DNA from: Flavobacterium fluviale
GTDB lineage: Bacteria > Bacteroidota > Bacteroidia > Flavobacteriales > Flavobacteriaceae
Length of the DNA stretch: 64,000 bases
Direction of reading: 5' to 3'
NCBI RefSeq assembly: GCF_003312915.1
Contig: NZ_CP030261.1
Span: 3,472,001 to 3,536,000 of the forward strand
Shown here: positions 3,608-5,640 of the stretch, piece by piece
Layout of the letters: the number at the start of each line of letters is the position of its first letter
Numbering within the stretch: the stretch's first letter is position 1
Program-made: the position numbers and the translations under genes
Notes under the pieces: generated by a model
The model's input: the letters and a program-made list of their open reading frames with translations, nothing else
Database searches by the model: none
Told to the model about the DNA's origin: nothing

Positions 3608-4087
3608 TTACATATTTTTGAAAATAGTATGCATCAAACGCTTCTTATCGTTTATACTTTCTTCTAATGAAATCATTGTTTCTGTTCTGTAAACACCTTC
3701 AATATCGTCAATCATAAAGATAACTTCTTTTGCGTGCTTAGTATCTTTTGCTCTAATTTTGCAAAAAATATTAAATTTTCCAGTTGTTACAGAAGCTACG
3801 GTAACGAATGGAATTTGATTAATTCGCTCTAATACAAATTTTGTTTGAGACGTATTATTCAGAAATACACCAACATAAGCAATAAATGAATACCCTAATT
3901 TATCGTAATCTAAGGCTAAAGAAGACCCCATTATTATACCTGCGTCTTCCATCTTTTTTACTCTAACATGTACTGTTCCAGCAGATATCAATAATTTTTT
4001 TGCAATGTCAGTAAACGGAACTCTCGTATTGTCTATTAACATATCTAAAATCTGGTGATCTACTTCATCTAAACGAAATTTACTCAT
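3608..4087 (-). CDS. Lrp/AsnC-family transcriptional regulator
   Basis: 159 residues with the standard Lrp/AsnC build: an N-terminal winged HTH (about 5-60; DHQILDMLIDNTRVPFTDIA then SAGTVHVRVKKMEDAGII) and a C-terminal RAM/AsnC ligand-binding domain (about 70-150) of alternating strands and helices. Such proteins form octamers or dimers and respond to amino acids. Neighbours are a peptidase upstream and ppc downstream. A weak promoter, TTG then 19 nt then TACTTTG, lies upstream on the minus strand. The effector cannot be read from sequence. Confidence 0.9.
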   Translation of the reverse strand: MSKFRLDEVDHQILDMLIDNTRVPFTDIAKKLLISAGTVHVRVKKMEDAGIIMGSSLALDYDKLGYSFIAYVGVFLNNTSQTKFVLERINQIPFVTVASVTTGKFNIFCKIRAKDTKHAKEVIFMIDDIEGVYRTETMISLEESINDKKRLMHTIFKNM

Positions 4088-5319: not shown

Positions 5320-5332
5320 TGTGTTTTGATTA

Positions 5333-5372
5333 GTTTACAAAAGTAAACATCTTTATTTTTACAATTGTAAAC
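5333..5372. promoter_or_regulatory. Two palindromic operator candidates, peptidase side
   Basis: GTTTACAAAAGTAAAC (5333-5348) and TTTTACAATTGTAAAC (5357-5372), each 6+4+6, with centres 24 bp apart. A degenerate third copy, TTTATAAATGTAAAC, is at 5391-5405. The motif recurs before the XRE gene, which makes that regulator the likely ligand. Confidence 0.55.
5338..5364 (-). promoter_or_regulatory. Candidate promoter of the M14 peptidase gene
   Basis: Minus-strand -7 element TACTTTTG (5338-5345) matches TAnnTTTG. A TTG (5362-5364) lies 16 bp upstream, slightly short for a -33. The -7 box is inside the palindrome at 5333-5348 and the TTG is inside the one at 5357-5372. Confidence 0.5.
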
Positions 5373-5569
5373 TATTTAAATAGGCTAAAATTTATAAATG
5401 TAAACAGATTTTTGAACTATTTAACCAGCTCTTTTAGATAAAGCGCTGCTACATGCTACAATTCTAAATTTAAAATTGTAACTACTTATTAATTAATAAT
5501 TTAATTCTAATTATATGAAGTTTTATTTTAATACATTTACAACTAAATATAAGATTTATAGCTGTAAAA

Positions 5570-5600
5570 TTGTTATAGTTATTCTTTTTGTTTACATTTG
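5570..5600 (+). promoter_or_regulatory. Candidate promoter of the XRE regulator gene
   Basis: TTG (5570-5572), a 20-bp spacer, then TACATTTG (5593-5600), a match to TAnnTTTG. Transcription should start near 5607, giving a leader of about 25 nt. The -7 box is inside the palindrome at 5590-5605. Confidence 0.55.
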
Positions 5601-5640
5601 TAAATAAGCAATTTTAAAATAATAATTTACAATGGTAAAC
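5590..5640. promoter_or_regulatory. Two palindromic operator candidates, regulator side
   Basis: GTTTACATTTGTAAAT (5590-5605) covers the -7 element and ATTTACAATGGTAAAC (5625-5640) overlaps the start codon (5632). The arrangement fits negative autoregulation. Confidence 0.55.

Follow-up and report, generated by a model that had tools for sequence, protein, structure and literature searches.

The window, i.e., the whole stretch of 64 kb that was analyzed, contains a divergent gene pair separated by an intergenic gap of 312 bp (Table 1). One of the two genes encodes an XRE-type regulator and is present in a single copy in the source genome (4.84 Mb, one contig). The other encodes an M14 zinc carboxypeptidase-like protein and is directly followed by the gene of an Lrp/AsnC-family regulator, which probably belongs to the same operon. 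The XRE protein scores 28 bits for PF01381 (cut-off 23) and is thus a member of the HTH_3 family. Its AlphaFold2 model consists of a five-helix HTH domain (residues 4-68, pLDDT >90), a long linker of low confidence (residues ~80-130) and a confidently predicted, conserved C-terminal beta-hairpin (residues 133-147) with the consensus IERIVIFYKDGTFK. In a structure search, this model matched HTH domains alone, including those of SinR, C-proteins and the 434 repressor, and the C-terminal tail gave no recognizable relative. Two other identities were discarded. For a CI/LexA-type phage repressor, an S24 Pfam match is missing and the HTH domain is followed merely by the low-confidence linker and the beta-hairpin. 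For a type II antitoxin, the scores against the HigA and HipB NCBIfam equivalogs are 19 and 16 bits vs. cut-offs of 47.7 and 71.7, respectively, and the neighbors of the XRE gene encode the M14 protein and an acyltransferase, with no toxin adjacent.

The M14 protein scores above the cut-off of PF00246 and its HxxE motif, His and Glu are invariant, in accordance with membership of the M14 zinc carboxypeptidases. Across 38 relatives, residues H69, E72, R118, N127, R128, H157 and E240 do not vary; they are those expected to coordinate zinc, to carry out catalysis and to bind the C-terminal carboxylate. In the AlphaFold2 model (pLDDT 94) the catalytic domain begins near residue 38 and a beta-rich domain is located C-terminally (residues ~286-384); the top fold matches are bacterial and animal M14 carboxypeptidases with a TM score of ~0.5. 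An earlier note on this DNA had named the protein a cytosolic carboxypeptidase. The M14 assignment stands, with intact active-site residues and no signal peptide apparent by eye, but the CCP (M14D) label was dropped, since the N-terminal beta-sandwich domain that defines this group is absent from the predicted structure.

The intergenic gap is occupied by copies of a 16-bp palindrome, the operator motif GTTTACAWWTGTAAAC, which was learnt from 252 sites. At least five copies within 312 bp had been claimed beforehand, and these are indeed found (at 5333, 5357, 5390, 5590 and 5625) along with a weak sixth one at 5554; four of the proposed positions were exact, and the copy placed at 5391 actually starts at 5390. 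When up to three mismatches are allowed, the gap has 6 matches vs. 0.21 expected from dinucleotide shuffles (43.6 per 64 kb). The earlier note also had a single palindrome embedding both promoters. Each −7 box, recognized by the flavobacterial −7 consensus TAnnTTTG (PMC9723704), does lie inside a copy, but two separate copies, A and E, are involved. The suggested overlap of a further copy with the start codon of the regulator is confirmed by operator F, which spans the XRE ATG. Genome-wide, exact RTTTACNNNNGTAAAY occurs at 9 sites, 3 of them within the XRE/M14 gap, and with one mismatch it shows no enrichment over the reversed control (133 vs. 130). The motif TTTACAWWTGTAAA occurs 52 times vs. 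25 for its control, 5 of the 52 being in the XRE/M14 locus. No wider regulon is claimed from TTTACAWWTGTAAA: the motif overlaps the −7 consensus, and the two other exact matches are inside reading frames.

Table 1. Features of the XRE/M14 locus, in positions of the window.
Feature	Position	Strand	Description and basis
Lrp/AsnC-family regulator	3608..4087	-	Directly downstream of M14; Pfam and NCBIfam comparison, conservation
M14 zinc carboxypeptidase-like protein, 384 aa	4165..5319	-	Divergent from XRE; Pfam Peptidase_M14
Operator A	5333..5348		GTTTACAAAAGTAAAC, perfect; covers M14 −7 box
−7 box of M14 promoter, TACTTTTG	5345-5338	-	Inside operator A; sequence
Operator B	5357..5372		TTTTACAATTGTAAAC, 1 mismatch; 24 bp from A, over M14 −33 region
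Operator C	5390..5405		ATTTATAAATGTAAAC, 2 mismatches; 33-35 bp from B
Spacer (putative looped DNA)	5406..5553		Hypervariable sequence, near-constant length; alignment of 30 Flavobacterium species
Operator D	5554..5569		3 mismatches; weak in the window, with stronger counterparts in relatives; 35-36 bp from E
Candidate −33 TTG of XRE promoter	5570-5572	+	
Operator E	5590..5605		GTTTACATTTGTAAAT, 1 mismatch; covers XRE −7 box
−7 box of XRE promoter, TACATTTG	5593-5600	+	Inside operator E; sequence
Operator F	5625..5640		ATTTACAATGGTAAAC, 1 mismatch; overlaps XRE ATG (5632), 35 bp from E
XRE (HTH_3) regulator, 148 aa	5632..6078	+	Pfam HTH_3, conservation, AlphaFold2 model

Both the gene pair and the layout of its sites are conserved throughout the family, where "family" and "genus" are the groups as defined by the genome collection searched and the taxon names were assigned from gene content and promoter type. 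In a protein search, 283 of 299 Flavobacteriaceae genomes proved to have the XRE gene, nearly always as a single copy. The loci that were compared (219) represent mostly one per genus in the family, together with many species of the genus of the window; poor relatives are under-sampled because the loci were ranked by XRE similarity. The divergent M14 gene is retained in 218 of the 219 XRE loci with a median gap of 302 bp, and the Lrp gene is present in all 60 loci that have enough flank. Sites were scored with a position weight matrix trained on 90 of the loci, and the spacing result also holds outside that set. The mean number of strong sites is 3.3 in real gaps vs. 0.0 in shuffled gaps. The −7 consensus stands in register within E in 176 of 184 loci, and on the M14 strand within A in 168 loci. 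The commonest spacing between the two best M14-side sites is exactly 24 bp (A-B; 142 loci), while B-C (33-35 bp), D-E (35-36 bp) and E-F (34-36 bp) are likewise narrowly confined across species. In a few lineages F is located at −17 rather than at −6; E is then mostly found at −52 and the 35 bp are preserved; the position of F is therefore set by E rather than by the start codon. When 30 Flavobacterium species are aligned, the sites appear as invariant islands in a scrambled spacer, the length of which is near-constant with one clear change of 11 bp.

Some loci deviate from this general picture. In a single case (L185) the fetched stretch has no M14 match, and two rearranged loci, L164 and L044, have gaps of 111 and 681 bp, respectively. 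Nine loci carry another palindrome, GTTRACAAWTGTTA, halfway along the spacer, near −187, with little variation in position; it might be the site of another protein within the proposed loop. A second, longer M14 paralogue (~490-500 aa) was observed in some genomes (four loci), and its upstream region is without palindromes.

The distance between the two clusters of sites is quantized in helical turns. B-to-E distances peak at 201.6, 213.3, 223.1 and 233.2 bp (classes 202, 213, 223 and 233) with a standard deviation near 1 bp, and none falls at 216-218, 226-230 or 236-242 bp. The best-fitting period is 10.2 bp (R=0.80, n=174; bootstrap 10.06-10.41). The same phasing is seen outside Flavobacterium (R=0.82, n=100 loci), and jittered nulls never exceed R=0.35. 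Start codons, those of M14 being nominal, are blunter rulers (R=0.47 from ATG to ATG, R=0.62 from B to the M14 ATG), indicating that the constrained length is that between sites. To account for shared ancestry, a tree was built from the M14 and XRE proteins; on it the B-to-E class changed at least 36 times, and from it 87 pairs on non-overlapping paths were drawn. The B-to-E distance differs by at most 2 bp in 62 of these pairs and by more in 25 (3, 3, 8, 9, 9, 9, 10 in four pairs, 11 in four pairs, 12 in three pairs, 19, 19, 22, 24, 31, 32, 35 and 47 bp). These larger differences peak near 10 and 20 bp, with none at 4-7 or 13-18 bp, and tested against uniform differences their periodicity has P values from 2e-5 to 1e-4 for periods of 10-10.5 bp (summary P ~5e-5). 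The first 119 loci had yielded 8 informative independent pairs (P=0.08) and were underpowered, hence the addition of 100 loci. In a clade that has no E and carries sites near −250, −228, −185 and −6, the C'-to-F distances of 159-160, 168-171, 178-181 and 191 bp again follow steps of ~10 bp. Two loci are off the grid (208 and 219 bp), and a few rearranged loci such as L044 and L164 also misfit. The distance between operators is thus limited to one helical phase, as for a loop-forming regulator, which points to a DNA loop. From the phasing it follows that the clusters must face each other, but not which factor joins them; the bridge could also be a nucleoid protein or a filament.

Loci that have lost the regulator provide a second line of evidence. 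The search used found no XRE gene in 16 family genomes, 12 of which retain M14. Most of the readable M14 upstream regions of the XRE-less family genomes have no palindrome, and most of those outside the genus are likewise devoid of it; in four loci that were checked, the Lrp gene is still downstream of M14. All 12 Flavobacterium genomes without a strong XRE match have M14, and a profile search recovers XRE in 1 of the 12. In the 11 XRE-less genomes, M14 (up to 91% identical) and Lrp are still present, and the palindromes are either mutated (L318, L319, L320) or gone; e.g., L318, with an M14 protein of 91% identity, shows the decayed forms GTTGACAAAAGTAAAG and TTTTACAATTATAAAA. An intact or similar M14 −7 box persists in most of these Flavobacterium genomes. 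The operators are lost once the regulator is lost, as for the sites of a loop-forming regulator; this favors XRE over Lrp as the protein that binds them. The retention of the palindromes with the gene pair and their decay in the absence of XRE, even where the peptidase is kept, link the sites to the regulator and support the shared self-regulatory operator that the earlier note had put forward. An alignment of relatives had been set beforehand as a test that could refute that proposal, and it found the palindromes retained together with the XRE/M14 pair in 218 loci.

In locus L319, positions ~1255-1392 near M14 match the last 42 residues of XRE and no intact XRE gene is present; the match is likely a recent pseudogene remnant of the regulator. 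As a separate observation, loss of XRE leaves the M14 and Lrp/AsnC genes side by side (four loci), which suggests an old operon joining a peptidase to a regulator of the amino-acid type.

Based on these comparisons, we propose that XRE acts as a local autorepressor and would repress M14 as well, joining the two promoters by a loop of ~21 turns. We consider this reading probable as a whole. Its firmest component is autoregulation combined with control of the M14 gene, which is very probable from the sequence comparison, followed by the loop between the two promoters, which is quite likely. The 148-aa protein would bind the operator motif as a dimer, and dimers would occupy cluster A-B-C at the M14 promoter as well as cluster (D)-E-F, which spans promoter and start codon of XRE. 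Dimers of both clusters would touch each other, probably via the C-terminal beta-hairpins; a conserved second module on a flexible linker, as predicted by the model, would suit such a bridge. Through this contact, the DNA would be folded into a loop of ~20-22 helical turns (213-233 bp), which would silence XRE and M14, the latter probably together with Lrp downstream of it. In this way, XRE would hold down both its own expression and that of the peptidase operon until some signal loosens the loop. That binding would repress rather than activate is suggested by the sites covering the −7 boxes and the start codon. In its most extended form, the model would comprise a new short loop-forming XRE family (HTH, linker and hairpin bridge), a family-wide Flavobacteriaceae loop of ~21 turns evolving by whole turns, and a peptidase/Lrp operon set by a peptide or amino-acid signal. 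This extension is tentative, and we rate its chance as slightly short of even.

Beyond the family, 20 loci were sampled from sister families in the wider order. Of these, 17 keep the XRE/M14 pair, and 8 have more than 1 kb between the two genes; not all members of the order would therefore have a short loop. Separations of 1.4-1.6 kb were observed in eight loci from two sister families; additional DNA, or a gene, has been inserted between the divergent genes there. In genomes from other orders, the XRE homologues stand alone (0 of 20 adjoin M14). Six of these solitary homologues are preceded by the same palindromes, which would fit regulators that control only themselves. The regulator and its own operator thus probably came first, and M14 would have been brought under control later.

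The arrangement could also be explained without any loop, if XRE acted at each promoter separately, combining autorepression with local repression of M14, and if the spacing reflected descent or promoter packing. Every operator indeed covers a promoter element or the start codon, so that local occlusion would be enough to repress, and the upstream sites of homologues outside the order occur without an adjoining M14. This reading, however, is difficult to reconcile with a spacer whose sequence has fully turned over while its length changes almost only by ~10-11 bp. Such steps recur in independent lineages and in two site arrangements, and independent promoters would not need them; we therefore regard separate action as improbable.

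Far less probable still is that the palindromes bind another protein, e.g., the Lrp/AsnC regulator behind M14 or a nucleoid protein, and that XRE is a bystander. Lrp-family proteins can wrap DNA, and every locus examined has retained Lrp next to M14. Yet, XRE-less species that retain M14 and Lrp (up to 100% identical) lose the palindromes, and some solitary XRE homologues in other orders are preceded by the same sites. In the case of operator F, an RNA hairpin might be considered, as the sequence would give a 6-bp stem with the AUG in the loop, and F and its relatives would then control translation. A, B, C and E share the motif without being at start codons, though, and where F has shifted 11 bp upstream E has shifted too. 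The hairpin was rejected because F moves with E, and we give it hardly any credence. The bridging of both promoters by XRE thus remains our preferred reading.

No description of the XRE/M14 pair, or of XRE looping in this phylum, turned up among the open-licence PMC papers searched. DNA looping is usually demonstrated for one promoter at a time by means of half-turn insertions. Here, evolution has in effect run the insertion experiment in well over 100 species and kept almost only whole-turn changes, and the loop geometry can therefore be read from genomes. The evolutionary evidence for this geometry is unusually strong. The locus offers a testable set of regulator, operator and target in a family with little mapped transcriptional control, as well as an easy system to study the evolution of loop length and sequence, and it would assign a regulator to the conserved, uncharacterized M14/Lrp gene pair.

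The closest functional analogues of the proposed XRE loop would be AraC and GlpR. AraC regulates its own expression and is encoded divergently from its target. At the araC/araBAD locus of E. coli, repression relies on a loop of ~210 bp that requires sites on matching helix faces (PMC7408454). In contrast to XRE, which has an HTH domain with linker and hairpin and in which no ligand domain is seen, AraC is unrelated in fold, carries a domain for sugar binding, recognizes direct repeats and acts as an activator, too. GlpR belongs to the DeoR family. As cited in PMC2946308, E. coli GlpR forms a repression loop by means of four operators between divergent glp operons; unlike XRE, it acts with CRP and is, by the same account, not encoded in the divergent pair.

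The repressors of phages lambda and 434 resemble XRE in the HTH fold, which is close to that of the 434 repressor and SinR, in the palindromic operators over promoters and in the proposed autoregulation. The operators of lambda are ~24 bp apart. CI also loops DNA (PMC7408454). XRE differs from these repressors in that it is without an S24 domain, is a cellular gene outside a prophage and would have a peptidase gene as its target. Conserved spacing is known from the CytR-CRP cassettes, where site spacing is maintained across species and larger spacers tend to whole helical turns (PMC3454398). There, at most three turns separate half-operators and CRP sites, whereas the loop proposed here would extend over ~21 turns between two promoters.
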